IMG/VR virus record: IMGVR_UViG_3300027849_000014
Coordinates: 1-59,488 of that record
Direction: 5' to 3' (one strand)
Length of the DNA stretch: 59,488 nucleotides
Source: a virus
This document shows positions 6,643 through 18,277 of the stretch, in pieces. The stretch's first letter is position 1; the number at the start of each line of letters is the position of its first letter. Made by a program: the position numbers and the translations under genes. The notes under the pieces were generated by a model that worked only from the letters and a program-made list of their open reading frames with translations, had not been told where the DNA came from and made no database searches.

Positions 6643-6672
6643 ACAGTTAGCTACTTTAAGCTACCTATCTCG

Positions 6673-6683
6673 CTGATAATCAG
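6673..6683. promoter_or_regulatory. Palindromic site 3 (CTGATAATCAG)
   Basis: Identical to site 2 and 41 bases from it. It sits inside a possible small hairpin TCGCT/AGCGA (6670-6674 with 6692-6696). Confidence 0.55.
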
Positions 6684-6936
6684 GTACTTATAGCGACCAG
6701 CACATGTGAACTCAAGTGCGCCCTATCCATCTAAGCAAAGCCTATCAACGAATAGGATGCCAAGCTAGAGAGCTGTAACAGGCTTTAGGAATAGGGTGAC
6801 GTGGGGTGCAGTGTGCGAGCATGGTGATGCCAGCCCGATAACCAAGGGGGGTATCACCGCAAAATAACCAGCATCTGGATGACAGGCTAGTGAGAGCGAC
6901 ACTCATGCTGGGGACTAACTTTTAAATTAAATAACG

Positions 6937-7314: not shown

Positions 7315-7323
7315 ATTACCACC

Positions 7324-7366
7324 ACAGGGATTGGAACGATAGGGGTGTTCGACTCACCCCCCCTGT
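7324..7366 (+). ncRNA. tRNA acceptor/T-arm-like hairpin between genes
   Basis: ACAGGG (7324-7329) pairs with CCCTGT (7361-7366), and GGGGTG (7342-7347) pairs with CACCCC (7355-7360). The two 3' strands are directly adjacent, so the helices should stack into a 12-pair rod, the same length as the acceptor plus T arm of a tRNA. The seven-base loop TTCGACT matches the T-loop rule (TTCRANY). The D and anticodon arms are replaced by 12 unpaired bases, so it is not a tRNA gene. It may be a processing signal for tRNA enzymes or a decoy. Confidence 0.45.
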
Positions 7367-7391
7367 ACTAACTTAATTAAATTCAATACCT

Positions 7392-7481
7392 ATGGCTTAC
7401 TTTCCTTTACTTATCCTAGCTCTTGTGATAATCACAGCAGCTTTACTTTTTAAAAACCAAATCAAAAATTTCTTAAAATAA
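7392..7481 (+). CDS. Very small membrane protein, 29 aa
   Basis: The frame is ATG at 7392 to TAA at 7479-7481. It is one hydrophobic segment (FPLLILALVIITAALLF) followed by a basic tail (KNQIKNFLK), the layout of a single-pass inner-membrane peptide with its C-terminus inside. The next gene begins six bases after the stop. Short phage membrane peptides can disturb host envelope functions; nothing more specific can be said. Confidence 0.5.
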   Translation: MAYFPLLILALVIITAALLFKNQIKNFLK

Positions 7482-7570: not shown

Positions 7571-7723
7571 ATGACAAACCTAGAAAAACTAGCTCAGTAC
7601 TACTACAACGAAGACAATTTATCAACCATCAAATTTGACAAGCACGGCAGACCGTACATCCAGAACAACGGACGTATCATGCTCTCCAGAAGAACAGAGT
7701 ACAGCTACAGCTTTGCTCACTAA
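7571..7723 (+). CDS. Small hypothetical protein, 50 aa
   Basis: ATG at 7571 to TAA at 7721-7723. The protein is Tyr-, Asn- and Arg-rich (LAQYYYNEDNLSTIKFD, then GRIMLSRRTEYSYSF) and probably forms a small beta-containing fold. It is followed after five bases by the first hammerhead-like element. Function unknown. Confidence 0.55.
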   Translation: MTNLEKLAQYYYNEDNLSTIKFDKHGRPYIQNNGRIMLSRRTEYSYSFAH

Positions 7724-7728
7724 AATCA

Positions 7729-7781
7729 GGTTAACTGATGATTGCTAATTGCATGAAAGCCCCGTACAGGGGCTATTAACC
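7729..7781 (+). ncRNA. Hammerhead-ribozyme-like element 1
   Basis: Read as RNA, the order is helix I strand GGTTAA (7729-7734), core CTGATGA (7735-7741), helix II TTGCTAATTGCAT (7742-7754), core GAAA (7755-7758), helix III GCCCC/GGGGC (7759-7763 with 7769-7773, loop GTACA), then T7774, A7775 and helix I partner TTAACC (7776-7781). This is the complete type I hammerhead layout, with the predicted cut after A7775. Helix I has six perfect pairs. Weak points are helix II (a U-U at the core end, then only three pairs) and an A at the cleavage site where C is usual. Cutting would leave 23 bases before the next ATG. Confidence 0.62.
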
Positions 7782-7798
7782 AAATAACAACTAGAATT

Positions 7799-8038
7799 AT
7801 GAGTATCAAATCAAACATTTTAACTGAAATCTCTAAGACATTTCAAACAATCGGCTGGGACACAGCAGAGGCAAAGGGAAAGCTTACCAACGACACGGGC
7901 ATGATACCAGCAGCATTTGAGAAGGAGATGACCATAGAGTACATGAAGGCTAACAACGTACTGTACACGCTTGAGTCTATTGAAAACGATGTAAAAAAGA
8001 TAAAAATGCTAATAGAATTACTAAACGATAACAACTAG
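7799..8038 (+). CDS. Hypothetical helical protein, 79 aa
   Basis: This gene follows the first hammerhead-like element by 17 bases. The sequence is helical throughout, with a C-terminal coiled-coil-like part (NNVLYTLESIENDVKKIKMLIELL, from about residue 51). No family is recognised. A stop of the TAG-AGCT-ATG type links it to the next gene, as for many genes here. Confidence 0.65.
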   Translation: MSIKSNILTEISKTFQTIGWDTAEAKGKLTNDTGMIPAAFEKEMTIEYMKANNVLYTLESIENDVKKIKMLIELLNDNN

Positions 8039-8042
8039 AGCT

Positions 8043-8255
8043 ATGAAAAGTTTAAACAACATCAAAGAGACGTTTGCTAAAGGAAATCAAAACGGTAAGC
8101 TAGAGCTAGGTCGCGTTACTTATTGGTTTAACCTTAATGAATTGAGAATTAATCAAGACCTTGATGGGTTTGCATCTAATAGAGCACCGCTATACTATGA
8201 TAATGAGGCTAAATTCTATGCGGCTGTAAAGAGAGTATTAAACAAACAAAACTAA
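8043..8255 (+). CDS. Hypothetical protein, 70 aa
   Basis: The protein mixes polar and aromatic residues (GRVTYWFNLNELRINQDL, then APLYYDNEAKFYAAVKRVL), consistent with a small alpha/beta fold ending in a helix. It begins four bases after the previous stop. Function unknown. Confidence 0.6.
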   Translation: MKSLNNIKETFAKGNQNGKLELGRVTYWFNLNELRINQDLDGFASNRAPLYYDNEAKFYAAVKRVLNKQN

Positions 8256-8258
8256 ACT

Positions 8259-8498
8259 ATGACAATGTACAAAGTAGTAACAATAGACCAATTTGGTCTT
8301 AACGTAACACAGGAAGATGGGTTTAAAAACTCATCAGATGCACAGGAAGAGGCTAATGATTGCATCGAAAGATGGGGAGAACAATTTGGTCAGGATTTTT
8401 GGGTAGAGCCTTACGAACCAGAGCCATACAAGAAGCCAAGGGGATACAACAATAACGCAGTCGATGGCTGGGAAGACATTTATCAATTAGAAGAGTAA
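8259..8498 (+). CDS. Hypothetical acidic protein, 79 aa
   Basis: The protein is acidic and rich in Trp, Pro and Tyr toward the end (FWVEPYEPEPYKKPRGYNNN). A second ATG two codons in could also be used. Its stop overlaps the beginning of a multibranched RNA element in the following gap. Function unknown. Confidence 0.6.
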   Translation: MTMYKVVTIDQFGLNVTQEDGFKNSSDAQEEANDCIERWGEQFGQDFWVEPYEPEPYKKPRGYNNNAVDGWEDIYQLEE

Positions 8499-8499
8499 C

Positions 8500-8632
8500 A
8501 CTACTCACCACTCTAGTGCAGTCAAAATAATGGTGTCCAACCTGACACTCAATCACTTGAGGTACGAAGGAAGTAAGAGTAGTAATCACAGGCGCTGTTG
8601 ACAGCCTTGAGCAGAGCAATACTGCTGCCTGT
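8500..8632 (+). ncRNA. Multibranched structured intergenic RNA
   Basis: The 155-base gap after the previous gene holds two folded domains. Domain 1 is closed by ACTACTC (8500-8506) with GAGTAGT (8577-8583) and contains hairpins GTGTC/GACAC (about 8533-8549) and CTCAA/TTGAG (about 8548-8561). Domain 2 is a three-way junction: ACAGGC (8588-8593) with GCCTGT (8627-8632), enclosing GCTG-TTGA-CAGC (8594-8605) and GCAG/CTGC (8611-8614 with 8622-8625). No poly-T follows, so it is not a simple terminator. No known RNA class is recognised. Confidence 0.45.
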
Positions 8633-8653
8633 ATCTAACCAACACGATTAATT

Positions 8654-8893
8654 ATGAAATTAAAATTTAAAGTATGTGACCTAACGGGAGCAGTAGAGTC
8701 ATCTGGAATTATTGGAGATAACAACTACAATGTAGCACTACATGATGCCTCATTTTTTGGCAGCAACACTTTCATTGATAGGGGGTATAAGTATACTGTT
8801 TTCCAAAATGGATTTAAAACCAAGGAGAGTACTAAGTATCACGACCTAAGTGAATTAATGAACAAAGATATATCATTTTATATAAAATTTTAA
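8654..8893 (+). CDS. Hypothetical protein, 79 aa
   Basis: The sequence alternates hydrophobic and polar residues (MKLKFKVCDLTGAVESSGII, then a glycine- and asparagine-rich middle), suggesting a small beta fold. It is the first gene after the multibranched RNA element and ends five bases from the next small gene at 8896. Function unknown. Confidence 0.6.
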   Translation: MKLKFKVCDLTGAVESSGIIGDNNYNVALHDASFFGSNTFIDRGYKYTVFQNGFKTKESTKYHDLSELMNKDISFYIKF

Positions 8894-8895
8894 CT

Positions 8896-9033
8896 ATGAA
8901 AGCACAAAACAACAGCGATGCTTACCTGAAGCTGCTACTAGACGAAGGTAGGATATCATTTAAAAATTATTTTTTTAGACAGGGCGCAGAGAAGCTGGGC
9001 ATTAAAACTTATGAATTAATTAACAACAGATAA
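8896..9033 (+). CDS. Small hypothetical protein, 45 aa
   Basis: ATG at 8896 to TAA at 9031-9033. Two helices seem likely (SDAYLKLLLDEGRISFKNYF and RQGAEKLGIKTYELINN), with a helix-turn-helix-like spacing that is too short to assign. It fits exactly between its neighbours, with TAA-AACT-ATG linking to the next gene. Confidence 0.55.
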   Translation: MKAQNNSDAYLKLLLDEGRISFKNYFFRQGAEKLGIKTYELINNR

Positions 9034-9037
9034 AACT

Positions 9038-9355
9038 ATGAAAACTAAAATCAAATTGAAAGAAGGATACGGACAGGGCTTTATGCCACTAGGCGCATCA
9101 TACAAAAACTACACAATGCTGGTAGCAATCGCTAACTACTCTGAAAACGGGGTGTGTTACAATGACGCAATGGAGATGCTGGACGAAGACACCAGCATAG
9201 AAAAGTACCACTCCAAAATTAGGCTTCTGGAGGGGCTAGGAGGCTTCATGAGGGCTGTATGCACAGAAGACTTTGCCTTGGCATGGAACAGGGCAGATGG
9301 CAGCAACAGAGACGCTCTTCTGGAGGCTTTAAAAAATAATGAGATAGAGCTATAA
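9038..9355 (+). CDS. Hypothetical acidic protein, 105 aa
   Basis: The protein is acidic and mostly helical after a short N-terminal strand (ENGVCYNDAMEMLDEDTSIE, then RLLEGLGGFMRAVCTEDFAL). No catalytic motif is seen. The second hammerhead-like element starts one base after its stop codon, so self-cleavage there would leave this gene at the 3' end of its RNA segment. Function unknown. Confidence 0.65.
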   Translation: MKTKIKLKEGYGQGFMPLGASYKNYTMLVAIANYSENGVCYNDAMEMLDEDTSIEKYHSKIRLLEGLGGFMRAVCTEDFALAWNRADGSNRDALLEALKNNEIEL

Positions 9356-9356
9356 A

Positions 9357-9409
9357 GGTTAACTGATGATTGCTAATTGCATGAAAGCCTCCTCTGGAGG
9401 CTATTAATC
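9357..9409 (+). ncRNA. Hammerhead-ribozyme-like element 2
   Basis: The same order as element 1: GGTTAA (9357-9362), CTGATGA (9363-9369), TTGCTAATTGCAT (9370-9382), GAAA (9383-9386), helix III GCCTCC/GGAGGC (9387-9392 with 9396-9401, loop TCT), T9402, A9403 and TTAATC (9404-9409). Helix III differs from element 1 in both strands yet still pairs, and helix I keeps pairing through one G-U. This covariation argues for a selected RNA structure rather than a copied piece of DNA. Cleavage after A9403 would leave 18 bases before the next start at 9422. Confidence 0.62.
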
Positions 9410-9421
9410 AAATCAAATACT

Positions 9422-9904
9422 ATGAAGACTACAATCAAATTATCAAACAAGATGGAAAGATACCAAGCAAGAAATGGGTATCACGTACAGGTTAATCTAA
9501 ACTACACCGCTACGGTCAGAAACCTTAGGGAGTTTGTTGAGTACATCAACAGCCCAGAGTCAGACCTTGACCTAGAGTTTTTTGGGAACATACTAAGCTA
9601 CGACAGTACAGTAGATGATGAGTTTAAGCACGGGCTTAACACAATCATAGCTGAGGTGAAGGGCTTTGCAGTGTTTAACGCACAGTTTAAGCACACTTAC
9701 ATCGAGTGTAAGGAAGAGAAGGAGACCATCAGCATAAAGACCAGCAACGGTAAGCTAATCACCTTCAGCGTGATGTACAATCAGTGCGTAGATGTAAAGT
9801 ACCACAACGGTCAGGATGATTTCAAAATAATTGGGTTTCATGGGGGGCAGACTCCTGTGCCACACACAGCCGTAACACTACAAACAATCTTATTAAACAA
9901 CTAG
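9422..9904 (+). CDS. Hypothetical protein, 160 aa
   Basis: I use the ATG at 9422 (MKTTIKLSNKMERYQ). A longer reading from 9377 would begin inside the hammerhead-like element and add 15 residues without good composition. The protein looks like a mixed alpha/beta fold with two beta-rich parts (NGYHVQVNLNYTATVRNL and ETISIKTSNGKLITFSVMY). No family is recognised. The linkage to the next gene, TAG-AATT-ATG, is typical of this cluster. Confidence 0.65.
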   Translation: MKTTIKLSNKMERYQARNGYHVQVNLNYTATVRNLREFVEYINSPESDLDLEFFGNILSYDSTVDDEFKHGLNTIIAEVKGFAVFNAQFKHTYIECKEEKETISIKTSNGKLITFSVMYNQCVDVKYHNGQDDFKIIGFHGGQTPVPHTAVTLQTILLNN

Positions 9905-9908
9905 AATT

Positions 9909-10427
9909 ATGGAAAGAACTTTAAAATTTAAGACAGACAAAGCAACAGATTGGTACATCACCAAAGAGTTTGCAGACGACAAACACATGCGTAATTTTAT
10001 TGCGTATGTGTGCAGAACAAAGAAGGGATACACCCTTGACGAAGTATTTATTAATCAAACAGAGTATAAAACTTGTGACAGGTGTTGTTATGATATCGTA
10101 GATAATGACGGCGATATTATGGAACACGTTTGCACTGATGAAATTGAATTAAATTCAAGAGAGGACAACAAACTAATTGCAGAATTTATGGGTATGAAAT
10201 ATTCAGATGAAAAAAGTTTCAATAATGGAGAATGGACACATTCAATTAAATCATTGAGTAAATTTGAAACCTCTTGGGATTGGCTGATGCCTGTATGTCA
10301 ACAAATTGACAAATACCTAGAGGATAATATATCGCTGATAGGATACTTTGATGATTGCTTAAGGTCTAATGATATAGACGTAAGGTATCAAGCTGTAGTA
10401 GAATTTATTAATCAATTAGACAACTAA
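9909..10427 (+). CDS. Protein with cysteine cluster and ABA-sandwich-like C-terminus, 172 aa
   Basis: Two parts are visible. Residues 1-80 include a possible metal site (CDRCCYDIVDNDGDIMEHVC). Residues 93-172 begin NKLIAEFMGMKYSD and contain TSWDWLMPVCQQID and VVEFINQLDN. The second part is clearly related to the next gene, whose protein consists only of that module. The LIAEFMG / SWDWLMPV layout recalls the Phage ABA sandwich family known from Bacteroidetes phages; its function is not established. The pair probably arose by duplication, with one copy fused to the cysteine-containing part. Confidence 0.6.
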   Translation: MERTLKFKTDKATDWYITKEFADDKHMRNFIAYVCRTKKGYTLDEVFINQTEYKTCDRCCYDIVDNDGDIMEHVCTDEIELNSREDNKLIAEFMGMKYSDEKSFNNGEWTHSIKSLSKFETSWDWLMPVCQQIDKYLEDNISLIGYFDDCLRSNDIDVRYQAVVEFINQLDN

Positions 10428-10913: not shown

Positions 10914-11993
10914 ATGAGCATCAAACACATCACACCGCTAGATTACAGATACATGGAAAACATTAGCTGGGAGAAAAAAGTATCATACGCAGAGGTAACC
11001 TTTACTGTGAGTACAGGGGCTATTGAGCAAACCATTAAAGCCAATGTAGACACCAACGGGAAAGGGCTTTACGAGGCGCTAGTAGACCAAAGAATAATTG
11101 CTGAGTCAGACCATGTAAGAAAGGAGATTAACAGCATGGTTAAGCGCAATGTTGACAAGTACTGCGAAAGAAAGATAAGGGTATACAAAAGCGGAGTAAG
11201 GATACACAACGAGCTTGTAGACCTTGTAGTAAAGGATAAAAGAACAACTGTCTGGGAGCCTGAGAAAAACAACGGGGCTGTGAAGCCTGAAGAGTTGGTT
11301 GTAAGAGACCGCGTAAGTAACCTAAGCAATGAGGAGTTTTCTGGTAGATTATCTGATGACTCTTACCCCGTATACATTACTGCTTGGGCACACCCATCAA
11401 TTACCAAAGAGCCCTGTAAGTGTTCAATAAATTTCTGGATGAAGGATAAAGACGATGTTACAGACATACCTTACAGCCTACCTGAGTTTACGTTAGGGCT
11501 CAGGTCTCTTGTCACGAATACTAATGACGGTGTGCTACGCAGAAAAGAACATATAATTGACCTTATATACTCTGATGACAGGGGTATGTACCACTCTTAC
11601 GTGATACAGGATACAGGCAGAAGGGTTAAGCTTAACACCTTCATAGCCATGGCTAGACAGTACAACAGAGAAAAGGAAGCCCTGATAAACAAGAGCTTGG
11701 TAGAGAATGTAAACTACAGAGAGGTGCTGGCTAAACTACAGGAGATGTACCCTGGGTTACCGATATCTAAGAAAGAGGTTTATCAGACCAGCTTTAACAG
11801 AGACTTCCATGGATACTGGGGCAGAAGAAGATACCTAAAGTGTATTGTTGTTGAGTTTCCTGACACGAGTCAGTTGTTTTACAACGAAGAGAAAGCATGC
11901 GAAGAGAAAGAGCTGGTAGTTTCAGGGATGCATGATGTTTCCCTTATGACACCTGAGCAAGCAGTAAAAAAATTAATTAATCAAAACAAATAG
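10914..11993 (+). CDS. Hypothetical protein, 359 aa
   Basis: This is the largest gene of the first half of the early unit. The N-terminal third is charged and mixed (ENISWEKKVSYAEVTFTVS); the centre has aromatic and Pro-rich parts (SYPVYITAWAHPSI, PCKCSINFWMKDKDD); the C-terminal third carries a conserved-looking YWGRRRYLKCIVVEFPD. I cannot assign a family, a nuclease motif or an NTP-binding loop. The composition fits a soluble cytoplasmic protein. Alternatives such as a host-shutoff or DNA-modification factor cannot be tested by eye. Confidence 0.6.
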   Translation: MSIKHITPLDYRYMENISWEKKVSYAEVTFTVSTGAIEQTIKANVDTNGKGLYEALVDQRIIAESDHVRKEINSMVKRNVDKYCERKIRVYKSGVRIHNELVDLVVKDKRTTVWEPEKNNGAVKPEELVVRDRVSNLSNEEFSGRLSDDSYPVYITAWAHPSITKEPCKCSINFWMKDKDDVTDIPYSLPEFTLGLRSLVTNTNDGVLRRKEHIIDLIYSDDRGMYHSYVIQDTGRRVKLNTFIAMARQYNREKEALINKSLVENVNYREVLAKLQEMYPGLPISKKEVYQTSFNRDFHGYWGRRRYLKCIVVEFPDTSQLFYNEEKACEEKELVVSGMHDVSLMTPEQAVKKLINQNK

Positions 11994-13870: not shown

Positions 13871-14492
13871 AGCAAAATCAGTTTTCGAGACATTGAACTC
13901 TATCAATGTAAATGACAAGGTAGAAAAGAAGAACAACCTAACGTACCTATCATGGGCGTGGGCGTGGGCAGAGGTAAAGAAGAACTACCCTACCGCAACG
14001 TACACTATCTATGAGGATGCAGACGGGATGTTCTACCACTCAGACATCAGGTCTGCATGGGTAAAAACAGGTGTAACTATCGAGGGTATAGAACATATTG
14101 AATACCTACCCGTGATGGACTTCAGAAACAATTCTATTCTTCTGGATAAGCTATCGTCTGTTGACGTAAACAAAACCATACAGCGTAGCTTAACAAAGGC
14201 TATCGCAAGACATGGGTTAGGACTTTATGTGTATGCTGGAGAGGACTTACCTAGCGGTGAGGCAAAGCAAACAACAGGCAGACCAGCAGCTAAGAAGCCA
14301 GCTCAAACTAAGCCTTCTTTACAAACGACAGTGACGCACATAAACCTAGAGATAGGAGATGATAATTGGGATAGAGTTATGAAGTATGTAGTCGACAACA
14401 AAGACAAAGGTCTTAAGGTTATTGGAGAACAGCTGACTAAAAAATATAAAATGTCAACGATAGTTAAAAAAGAAATAGCAAAAGCAATATAG
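13863..14492 (+). CDS. Sak-type single-strand annealing protein (DUF1071-like), 209 aa
   Basis: The N-terminus shows the DUF1071/Sak signature: VFETLNSINVNDKVEKKNN followed by LTYLSWAWAWAEVKKNYP (about residues 27-44), then a strand-rich part with VTIEGIEHIEYLPVMDFRN and, near residue 115, NKTIQRSLTKAIARHGLGLY with AGEDLP. This family anneals complementary single strands in phage recombination. The C-terminal 60 residues are a variable tail after a Pro/Thr-rich linker. It lies directly before a RecE-like exonuclease, the usual partner. DUF1071 proteins are around 200-250 residues, so it appears full length. Confidence 0.88.
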   Translation: MSKAKSVFETLNSINVNDKVEKKNNLTYLSWAWAWAEVKKNYPTATYTIYEDADGMFYHSDIRSAWVKTGVTIEGIEHIEYLPVMDFRNNSILLDKLSSVDVNKTIQRSLTKAIARHGLGLYVYAGEDLPSGEAKQTTGRPAAKKPAQTKPSLQTTVTHINLEIGDDNWDRVMKYVVDNKDKGLKVIGEQLTKKYKMSTIVKKEIAKAI

Positions 14493-15859: not shown

Positions 15860-18277
15860 ATGACAGCAAAAGAAATCACAATTTTTCAGAACATTAAAGA
15901 GACCTCAACCCCTTTCTTTAGGGGCTTGGACTTTATTATTGACAGAATAAAAAGCGGTGCATCAAAAGACCTAGTCAAAAGAATCCGCACAGAGAAGGAC
16001 AAGTCACAAAGGAATGAGCTAAAGAAAAACCTTCCAGCAATATGTTTCTCTGGTACGTTTAACAAACGCAACGACTCATCTATTATTAAGCACTCAGGTT
16101 TTATATGCCTAGACTTTGATGGGTATGAAAACAACAAAGAACTCTTAACAGATAAAGAGAAGCTAACAAAAAGTAATTTTGTATACTCAGTCTTTATATC
16201 TCCATCAGGTAAGGGATTAAAAGCTCTGGTTAAAATACCTCAGGACATTGACAATCATGTAAACTATTTTAATAGTCTTGAGATGCACTTCAACAACCCA
16301 CACTTTGATACTACCTGTAAAAATATATCAAGGGTATGTTACGAGTCATACGACCCGTTGGTATACGTAAACAAAAACTCTAGTGTATGGGAGGAGATTA
16401 AAGAAAAGGAATACACAGAGGTTAATAGTAAGTTGGACATGCCAACCATTCCAATCACTGATGAGAACAAGGTGGTTGAAATACTTGTTAAGTGGTGGGT
16501 AAAGAAGTACCCAATGGTTGAGGGGCAGAGAAACAACAACTGTTTTATACTAGCCTCAGCGTTTAACGACTTCGGTATTAATAAATCTTTAGCTGGATAT
16601 GTGCTGCAGAACTACAGAACAAAAGACTTTACAGAGACAGAGATAAACCAGACAATAAGTTCTGCCTATGCTCAGACACAAAACCATGGGACAAAGTACT
16701 ATGAAGACGAGGAAAGAGTTAACAACATAAGGGTAAAGCTGAGACGAGGAGAGTCTAAAAAGAAAATAAAATCACAGCTTGAAGAGAGCCACATAGAGCC
16801 AAGAGTAATAGAGGCTGTGCTCAACAGGGTAGAGGAGGAGAACGAACAGAAACAATTCTGGACTAAGTCAGACAAGGGTGTAATAAAGATAGTGCATATA
16901 CTATTCAAGCAGTTCCTTGAGGACAATGGCTTTTATAAGTACAGCCCAGAGGGTAGTAAGAACTATGTGTTTGTTAAGGTAACCAACAACCTCGTTGACC
17001 ACACAGATGAGAAGTATATAAAAGACTTTGTATTAAACAGCGTTATAGAGCTGGACGATGCGTCAATATACAATCACTTTGCAGACCAGGTAAGGTACTT
17101 TAGAGAGGATTTCCTGACACTTCTCTCAACGATTGACATCTACTTTGTTGAGGACAATAAGACCACCTCATACCTGTACTATAAGAACTGTGCTATCAAG
17201 GTGACAGAGAAAGATGTAGAGATAATAGACTACATAGACCTCAATGGTTTTGTTTGGAAAGACCACGTTATAGACAGAGCCTTCAACAGGTGTGAGGTAG
17301 GTGACTGCGACTACAAACAATTCATAAAAAATGTATGTGCTTCTGATGATGGTAGAATAAAATCAATGGAGTCTACAATCGGTTTCCTAATGCATGGGTA
17401 CAAGAATTTATCTTACTGCCCTGCAATAATTCTAAACGATGAGGTTATAAGTGACAACCCAGAGGGAGGGACAGGTAAAGGATTGTTTATGAACGCGCTA
17501 CAGAAAATGAAGAAGGTGGTAACGATAGATGGAAAGTCTTTTACTTTTGAAAGAGCATTTGCCTACCAACTTGTGTCAGCTGACACACAGATACTTGTGT
17601 TCGATGATGTAAAAAAGGGGTTTGATTTTGAGAGATTGTTTTCTGTGGTAACAGAAGGACTTACGCTTGAAAAGAAAAACAAGGACGCAATAAAAATTCC
17701 GTTTAGTAAGTCACCTAAGATTGCAATCACAACTAACTACGCCATCAAGGGAGCAGGTAATTCTTTTGCTCGTAGAAAGTGGGAGCTTGAACTACACCAG
17801 CACTACAATAAAAACTATACGCCTATAGATGAGTTCGGTAAGCTAATGTTTGGAGACTGGAACGATGAGGACTGGTGCAAGTTTGACAACTACATGGTGG
17901 GATGTATGATGGGATACCTAAAGACAGGCTTAGTCAAGAGTAAGTTTGTTAACCTTAAGATACGACAGCTGTCTGCGGAGTCTTCACATGATTTCATAGA
18001 GTGGCTAGGGTTAATAGCTGGGAGTGAGATGAGCGCTAATATATATATTGACTCAAGGATACACACCAACACTCTGTACCAGGATTTTATATCAGAGTAC
18101 CCAGACTACGGGCCTAAATCTAGGCTGTCTATAACACAGGTTAGATTTAATAAGTGGCTTACAGCCTATGCTGTCTACAAGACGGGAGCTCAACCTGAAA
18201 AGGGAAGAGATGCTACAGGTAGGTGGATGAGATTAAAAAAAGCAGACGAAGTTAACGTTCAAACCTCACTATTATGA
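15860..18277 (+). CDS. Primase-helicase: BT4734/VirE-N-like head with SF3-type ATPase, 805 aa
   Basis: The N-terminal 150 residues carry the BT4734/VirE_N-like pattern seen in Bacteroidetes primases: a CFSGTFNKRND strand, ICLDFDGYE (82-90, acidic metal-site type) and SPSGKGLKALVKI (113-125). After a PriCT-like middle part the C-terminal half is an SF3-type helicase: Walker A EGGTGKGLF at about 533-541, Walker B ILVFDDV near 577, sensor-type KIAITTNYA near 619 and an Arg-rich RRKWELEL near 637. It should lay primers and unwind DNA at the fork. It is the main replication protein seen; no DNA polymerase is encoded, so it probably works with host polymerase. It overlaps the next helicase by four bases. 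Confidence 0.85.
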   Translation: MTAKEITIFQNIKETSTPFFRGLDFIIDRIKSGASKDLVKRIRTEKDKSQRNELKKNLPAICFSGTFNKRNDSSIIKHSGFICLDFDGYENNKELLTDKEKLTKSNFVYSVFISPSGKGLKALVKIPQDIDNHVNYFNSLEMHFNNPHFDTTCKNISRVCYESYDPLVYVNKNSSVWEEIKEKEYTEVNSKLDMPTIPITDENKVVEILVKWWVKKYPMVEGQRNNNCFILASAFNDFGINKSLAGYVLQNYRTKDFTETEINQTISSAYAQTQNHGTKYYEDEERVNNIRVKLRRGESKKKIKSQLEESHIEPRVIEAVLNRVEEENEQKQFWTKSDKGVIKIVHILFKQFLEDNGFYKYSPEGSKNYVFVKVTNNLVDHTDEKYIKDFVLNSVIELDDASIYNHFADQVRYFREDFLTLLSTIDIYFVEDNKTTSYLYYKNCAIKVTEKDVEIIDYIDLNGFVWKDHVIDRAFNRCEVGDCDYKQFIKNVCASDDGRIKSMESTIGFLMHGYKNLSYCPAIILNDEVISDNPEGGTGKGLFMNALQKMKKVVTIDGKSFTFERAFAYQLVSADTQILVFDDVKKGFDFERLFSVVTEGLTLEKKNKDAIKIPFSKSPKIAITTNYAIKGAGNSFARRKWELELHQHYNKNYTPIDEFGKLMFGDWNDEDWCKFDNYMVGCMMGYLKTGLVKSKFVNLKIRQLSAESSHDFIEWLGLIAGSEMSANIYIDSRIHTNTLYQDFISEYPDYGPKSRLSITQVRFNKWLTAYAVYKTGAQPEKGRDATGRWMRLKKADEVNVQTSLL

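Follow-up and report, generated by a model that had tools for sequence, protein, structure and literature searches.

Two hammerhead elements between small phage genes

The window analysed here is the whole of a 59,488-base virus record (IMGVR_UViG_3300027849_000014, positions 1 to 59,488). Its plus strand carries, from about 6.9 to 22.6 kb, a block of small unknown ORFs followed by genes for a Sak-like annealing protein, a primase/helicase-similar protein, a helicase and an exonuclease, and its minus strand encodes GroEL, the portal and the terminase. By GroEL, the closest named relative is the podovirus isolate ctfjg026 (MW202828.1, 62% identical), in which a search for hammerheads found none. 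A layout in common with the Flavobacterium elemoviruses hints weakly at a host among the Bacteroidota.

Element 1 (7729-7781, plus strand) lies between two small ORFs of the same strand, one of 50 amino acids (7571-7723) and one of 79 (7799-8038). It starts 5 nt past the stop codon ending at 7723, and its predicted cut falls 23 nt ahead of the ATG at 7799. The 5' strand of helix I, GGTTAA (7729-7734), forms six Watson-Crick pairs with TTAACC (7776-7781), a helix that covaries in relatives, and is followed by the conserved catalytic core CTGATGA (7735-7741, C3 to A9). In helix II, TTGCTAATTGCAT (7742-7754), a U7742-U7754 mismatch occupies positions 10.1/11.1, and above it the pairs 7743-7753, 7744-7752 and 7745-7751, which covary in relatives, close a UAAUU loop. 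After the core letters GAAA (7755-7758, G12 to A15.1) comes the helix III hairpin GCCCC-GTACA-GGGGC (7759-7773, -9.9 kcal/mol by folding), the predicted 3'-terminal hairpin of the upstream message. T7774 is U16.1 and A7775 is A17; the cut is placed by homology between 7775 and 7776, such that the message of the 79-residue ORF would begin at 7776.

Element 2 (9357-9409, plus strand) starts 1 nt past the stop codon of an ORF of 105 amino acids (9038-9355, plus strand), and its predicted cut is 18 nt ahead of the ATG at 9422, which in the ORF list opens a plus-strand ORF (9422-9904) whose message would begin at 9404. Its helix I strand GGTTAA (9357-9362) pairs with TTAATC (9404-9409) with one G-U pair. 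The core CTGATGA (9363-9369), a helix II identical to that of element 1 (9370-9382, with the mismatch U9370-U9382), GAAA (9383-9386) and a helix III hairpin GCCTCC-TCT-GGAGGC (9387-9401, -9.1 kcal/mol by folding) are followed by U16.1 (T9402) and A17 (A9403), with a predicted cut between 9403 and 9404. The first-pass annotation had described this order of parts, the six helix I pairs with a single G-U in the second copy, and the distances to the neighbouring stop and start codons, and each of these details can be read from the sequence.

Identification as type I hammerheads

In both copies the type I core is complete (C3 U4 G5 A6 N7 G8 A9 and G12 A13 A14, with A15.1-U16.1). The parts come in the sequence I-core-II-GAAA-III-UH-I; helices II and III are closed and helix I is open, the arrangement that marks type I. 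Helix III is a closed hairpin in each, the reverse of type III, in which helix I is closed and helix III open. Residue 17 is H rather than G in both (A7775 and A9403). The G-C pair at 10.1/11.1, which is conserved but not defining, is absent, and U-U is found in its place. A tertiary contact between loop II and helix I, which serves activity at low Mg2+, may be hinted at indirectly: helix I is fixed at 6 bp with an A on either side, and in stems of 13 nt loop II is UNANU-like.

R1, a covariance model, rests on 39 further type I hammerheads from phages, all with G-C at 10.1/11.1, and includes no window sequence and no U-U element. This model of canonical relatives finds element 1 at 7727-7783 (53.3 bits, E 4e-10) and element 2 at 9355-9411 (48.2 bits, E 8e-9), and the next match in the window scores 16.7 bits (E 0.36), the E-values being rough. 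An Rfam search of the window matched neither element at the gathering score or at E 10, RF00163 (Hammerhead_1) included, an outcome that the first-pass annotation had listed among those that would count against it. The missing match says little, because the same model reaches only two (on contigs L388 and L337) of dozens of G-C phage relatives; as an argument against a hammerhead it was dropped, given that most of the canonical G-C phage hammerheads in the loci tested likewise escape Rfam.

The pattern CTGANGA-N13-GAAA occurs three times in the window against 0.14 expected, and a more complete pattern that includes U-U and TATT is present twice, where shuffles give an expectation of 0.00. The third match to the shorter pattern, at 16458, lacks hammerhead helices.

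Covariation and core conservation among relatives

Two copies alone prove little, because a single duplication could yield a near-identical pair. The earlier proposal that the differing helix III sequences are covariation holds for the pairing, which is present in both copies, and is weak as covariation, the copies being near duplicates; relatives were used instead. These were gathered from viral contigs, which are fragments, by core pattern. A first scan gave three contigs in which the sequences of helices I and III differ yet pair, all with U-A ahead of helix I, and a wider scan gave at least 119 stretches. Among the 102 distinct core-only matches listed with full flanks, 91 complete a hammerhead (11 type I and 80 type III), a count that, like the other element counts, is shaped by the descriptor thresholds. 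With shuffled flanks a mean of 0.5 are completed (maximum 3). When the downstream flanks are re-dealt among the matches, the mean is 25.6 (maximum 36), a high figure because many type III elements have CAG-like ends in common.

Alignment of 17 type I elements with U-U reveals two-sided change in 13 of 14 base pairs. In this alignment 99.2% of cells pair, a value that is partly built in, since an element had to show four pairs in helix I and four in helix III to be admitted. The filter was lighter on the three pairs of helix II that lie above the U-U, and it did not touch the count of two-sided changes. Sliding the partner strand by one to three columns leaves 26-45% of cells paired. Chance, or a simple duplicated inverted repeat, could be argued from the 34 identical bases that elements 1 and 2 share, which mean that the copies are not independent. 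Compensatory changes across hundreds of relatives, the shuffle expectation given above and the match to an independent model all speak against this reading, which has practically no probability left and which, on these sequence comparisons, is already refuted. The independent model together with the covariation across 17 elements settles the hammerhead identity, such that the claim that both window elements are complete type I hammerheads is confirmed as an observation and strongly supported by core, order, covariation and model alike.

Core conservation was also followed in 106 type I structures that lie in the examined loci and are unmatched by the type I and U-U scan patterns. The ten-letter core is perfect in 104, and the two exceptions are both U4C only; the same search of reversed sequence gave no such structures. 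U4C is described as lowering activity in vitro while leaving viroids infectious (PMC3088659). That helices I and III and the core might prove broken in related phages had been named beforehand as a way for the proposal to fail, and all three are unbroken in the relatives. Because the unpaired core is near-perfect in these unselected elements, catalysis itself appears to be under selection. A hammerhead-shaped RNA might also be kept without catalysis, as a binding site or a stabiliser of mRNA, given that the helix III hairpin is stable and that such a fold might by itself stop nucleases or be bound by a protein. Such a role would hardly call for an unpaired core kept with U4C as its sole exception, nor for its retention through the permutation from type I to type III, and this alternative is judged very unlikely.

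A sub-class marked by U10.1-U11.1 and A17

The U-U pair and the A at the cut site were regarded in the first-pass annotation as weak points. They turn out to be the linked signature of a recurring sub-class. When 10.1/11.1 is left free and the remainder of helix II is fixed as UGC/GCA, U-U is found in 74 of 78 distinct matches. For type I, with elements selected for TATT excluded, U-U goes with A17 in 21 cases and with another residue in 3, and G-C with A17 in 17 and another in 179 (odds ratio 74, p 4e-16); for type III the counts are 159 and 14 for U-U and 28 and 48 for G-C (odds ratio 19, p 3e-19), these p-values being inflated by shared ancestry. After clustering at 70% identity outside both sites, a set that spans many different helix II stems, the linkage remains at p 2e-8 for type I and 1e-12 for type III. 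Its repetition in two architectures is a stronger argument than the p-values.

The share of U-U was estimated from scans blind to 10.1/11.1 and to residue 17, rather than from scans with TATT fixed. In type I, residue 17 of the U-U elements is A in 7 and C in 1, and that of the G-C elements is A in 30 and C in 83. The type III counts are 74 A, 7 C and 4 U with U-U, and 13 A, 22 C and 2 U with G-C, and in one type III class most elements (85 of 129) have U-U. In most loci that hold both kinds, the U-U elements have A17 and the G-C elements have C17 or A17. The element-carrying kin of the window (portal about 80-90% identical) are G-C/C17, and both window copies are U-U/A17. As judged from these comparisons, the window elements belong to a large and largely uncatalogued phage sub-class marked by U10.1-U11.1 and A17.

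Each of the two features is expected to slow a hammerhead. The N7 of G10.1 is part of the A9/G10.1 metal site, a site connected to the scissile phosphate that follows residue 17, and from general knowledge of hammerhead structures a physical link between 10.1 and residue 17 through this site is plausible. The combination could be a second self-consistent active-site solution in which, without the N7 of G10.1, the metal or the attacking nucleotide is handled differently and A17 is preferred, and which emerged, or was favoured by selection, in phage hammerheads of both types; this is offered as a tentative possibility. What was suspected to be a pair of defects is a natural, recurring combination at two positions joined, by general knowledge of hammerhead structures, through the best studied metal site of the ribozyme, and sequences made by evolution could test the debate over the role of the metal.

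Other pairs at 10.1/11.1 (U-C, A-A, A-C and C-A, for example on L349, L436, L470 and L478) are rarer and mostly go with C17 or U17, not A17. A separate group on L014, L026, L047, L071 and L098 has U-U and apparently C17; its hammerhead-like core sits within longer complementary arms, CTAGCCCTGC...GCAGGGG, and may be part of a larger structured RNA.

Placement, message ends and the proposed mechanism

Across 365 distinct type I elements, the start lies at the upstream stop codon (median -1 nt), and the predicted cut is followed by the next ATG at a median distance of 24 nt; only 3 of the 365 are inside a long ORF, compared with 46% of random positions. In kin elements the TAA of the gene sits within helix I. 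This placement between stop and start supports the earlier suggestion that a polycistronic message is split between genes.

The layout of the upstream end is also shared. Helix III forms a hairpin below -5 kcal/mol in 84% of type I elements. In type III, where helix III is not closed, a strong hairpin abuts the element upstream in 76% of cases versus 34% of comparable gaps (200 sequences), rarely with a T-run behind it. Two permuted designs would therefore lead to one product, an upstream 3' hairpin and a fresh downstream 5' end, and the hairpin may have a protective role.

The most probable explanation, held with good though not full confidence, is that two type I hammerheads of the U-U/A17 phage sub-class divide the transcript and leave upstream ends capped by hairpins. 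The sequence, covariation, core, placement, linkage and hairpin layout are observed, and the cleavage, the chemistry of the ends and any influence on how stable or how well translated the messages are would be what they imply. Both elements would be transcribed within a polycistronic message of small phage genes, and each would fold and cut the strand it lies in, one after A7775 and the other after A9403. Downstream, the message would begin with a 5'-hydroxyl and a leader of 18-23 nt ahead of its start codon; upstream, it would end in a 2',3'-cyclic phosphate immediately past the GC-rich hairpin of helix III. A long transcript would thereby be split into shorter messages, with a 3' hairpin gained by each upstream piece, and self-cutting would do the job that terminators or RNases do elsewhere. 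Published cleavage of clustered prophage hammerheads in vitro, and a halovirus 5' end mapped close to a hammerhead cut site, speak for it (PMC3088659). Against this explanation stands the presence in both copies of the two features expected, on general knowledge, to slow cutting, along with the missing Rfam matches, the lack of hammerheads in MW202828.1 and the inactivity of 4 of 18 consensus hammerheads assayed in 2011.

A further complication is a predicted hairpin, AUCAG-GUUAA-CUGAU (7725-7739, plus strand), that would hide the core of element 1. This alternative fold is calculated at -20.0 kcal/mol versus -16.7 for the hammerhead, 3.3 more stable with tertiary contacts left uncounted. An upstream AUCAG able to pair with the core CUGAU is found for element 1 only, and element 2 has no competing hairpin. 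That difference between the copies, and the co-occurrence of two rate-lowering features, would suit a refinement rather than an opposite of the preferred explanation, namely that the ribozymes are deliberately slow and tunable: the linked U-U/A17 would keep cleavage slow enough for full-length and cut messages to be present together, or a protein, an RNA chaperone or the competing fold would time the cut. The AUCAG/CUGAU hairpin is absent in relatives inspected by eye, and a U-U majority in a whole type III class would be odd for a mere brake; this refinement is considered rather unlikely.

The pair of ribozymes could instead excise the 1,628-nt piece between them (7776-9403), to be circularised, for example by an RtcB-type ligase, into a circular phage message. 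Eukaryotic retrozymes form circles, and two type I elements in the same direction would give matching 5'-hydroxyl and cyclic-phosphate ends. Other phages carry hammerheads in runs in nearly every gap (13 in 11 kb) and not in pairs, and circular products were sought and not found in the 2011 study (PMC3088659), which together make a circle highly improbable. Division of the transcript into hairpin-ended messages remains the preferred reading, and the sequences suggest that many environmental phages may shape their message ends by RNA self-cutting, with the upstream piece usually ending in a hairpin.

Relation to known hammerheads

Hammerheads in prophages and haloviruses were described by Perreault et al. 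in 2011 (PMC3088659), and the phage association was repeated in a 2017 review (PMC6155905). According to the 2011 paper, three prophage clusters cleave in vitro, 4 of 18 consensus hammerheads assayed are inactive, the hammerhead cut site of a halovirus is no more than 3 nt from a mapped 5' end, and U10.1-U11.1 is a surprising rare natural variant and the best tolerated mispair (PMC3088659). Phage hammerheads, the proposal that long transcripts are cut into gene-length messages, and isolated U-U cases were thus already published there. The open-access literature, as distinct from subscription papers and preprints, yielded no report of the U-U/A17 linkage, of the scale among environmental phages or of the common 3'-hairpin layout, and the linked, widespread sub-class and the layout look new.

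The window elements share with the Rfam family RF00163 the part order, the core, the open helix I and the NUH cut site, and differ from it in U10.1-U11.1 instead of G-C, in A17 and in a helix I of constant length, 6 bp, with an A next to each end. The prophage clusters of 2011 are likewise placed between phage genes and proposed to cut long transcripts, whereas an A17 linkage and a 3'-hairpin layout are undescribed in the text available (PMC3088659). The HHphage elements of haloviruses HF1 and HF2 also directly precede a gene, in a polycistronic message made early, but are variant by an insertion beside C3 and belong to an archaeal host at high salt (PMC3088659). The U-U type III phage hammerheads (for example on L008 and L028) have the same core, U-U/A17 pairing and position in gene gaps, but are circularly permuted, with helix I closed by a UGUGUG-like loop, a short and open helix III, and an extra upstream hairpin in place of the closed helix III.

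Distribution and turnover

A scan of genome contigs gave 25 pattern matches, of which by inspection only those on L143 (a Rhodobacteraceae MAG) and L150 (a gammaproteobacterial MAG) are hammerheads; the others were set aside as apparent coincidences. The U-U sub-class would on this evidence be essentially viral. Single elements used as blastn queries against 50,697 named phages gave no convincing match in the case of U-U sequences of either type, and a G-C query reached Flavobacterium elemoviruses and the Methylophilales phage MEP301. The elemovirus has a type I element at L540 15995-16056 (54.1 bits with R1) as well as a type III at 13934, and MEP301 has a type I at L541 700-755 (63.5 bits with R1); unlike the window copies, both type I elements have G-C at 10.1/11.1 and C17. 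These cultured Flavobacterium and Methylophilales phages with G-C relatives make the shaping of message ends checkable, and a widespread set of phage ribozymes goes undetected by the reference RNA models. In the cultured elemovirus, the type I hammerhead (within L540 15962-16069, MT497073.1 16960-17067) lies beneath an antisense 'hypothetical protein', elemo89C_phanotate43, which is probably a false gene call.

Elements are gained and lost as units between genes, as sequence comparison at the site of copy 2 illustrates: the kin contig L640 reads GAGATAGAGCTATGAAGTATTATC and the window GAGATAGAGCTATAAAGGTTAACTGATGA, with the same gene end and with the ribozyme absent behind the L640 relative of ORF 9038-9355. 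The opposite case is ORF 8259-8498, whose relative has a hammerhead behind it in L640 and L641, where the window has a 155-nt gap (8499-8653). Strong hairpins are predicted in this gap (MFE -40.5 kcal/mol, with a z of only -1.7 versus shuffles); it has no Rfam match at E 10 and nothing similar in the loci examined, and is possibly another processing element. The gap before ORF 7571 (7315-7400) contains a strong hairpin, GGGGTG-ttcgact-CACCCC, flanked by ACAGGG/CCCTGT, and has no Rfam match.

In L542 (MW202828.1 36000-60850), a palindrome, GTGTCGTTAACGACAC, is repeated in at least five gaps between small genes (near 8476-8574, 8798-8841, 9593-9632, 9883-9926 and 11650-11709), the kind of place that hammerheads occupy in other phages. 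Some phage contigs are rich in hammerheads, with close to one per gene gap (L039, L334, L388, L164, L337 and L413), the 11-kb run of 13 being that of L039. One contig with several type I hammerheads, L346, also carries a twister-P3 ribozyme at 6669-6747 (Rfam, 40.3 bits).
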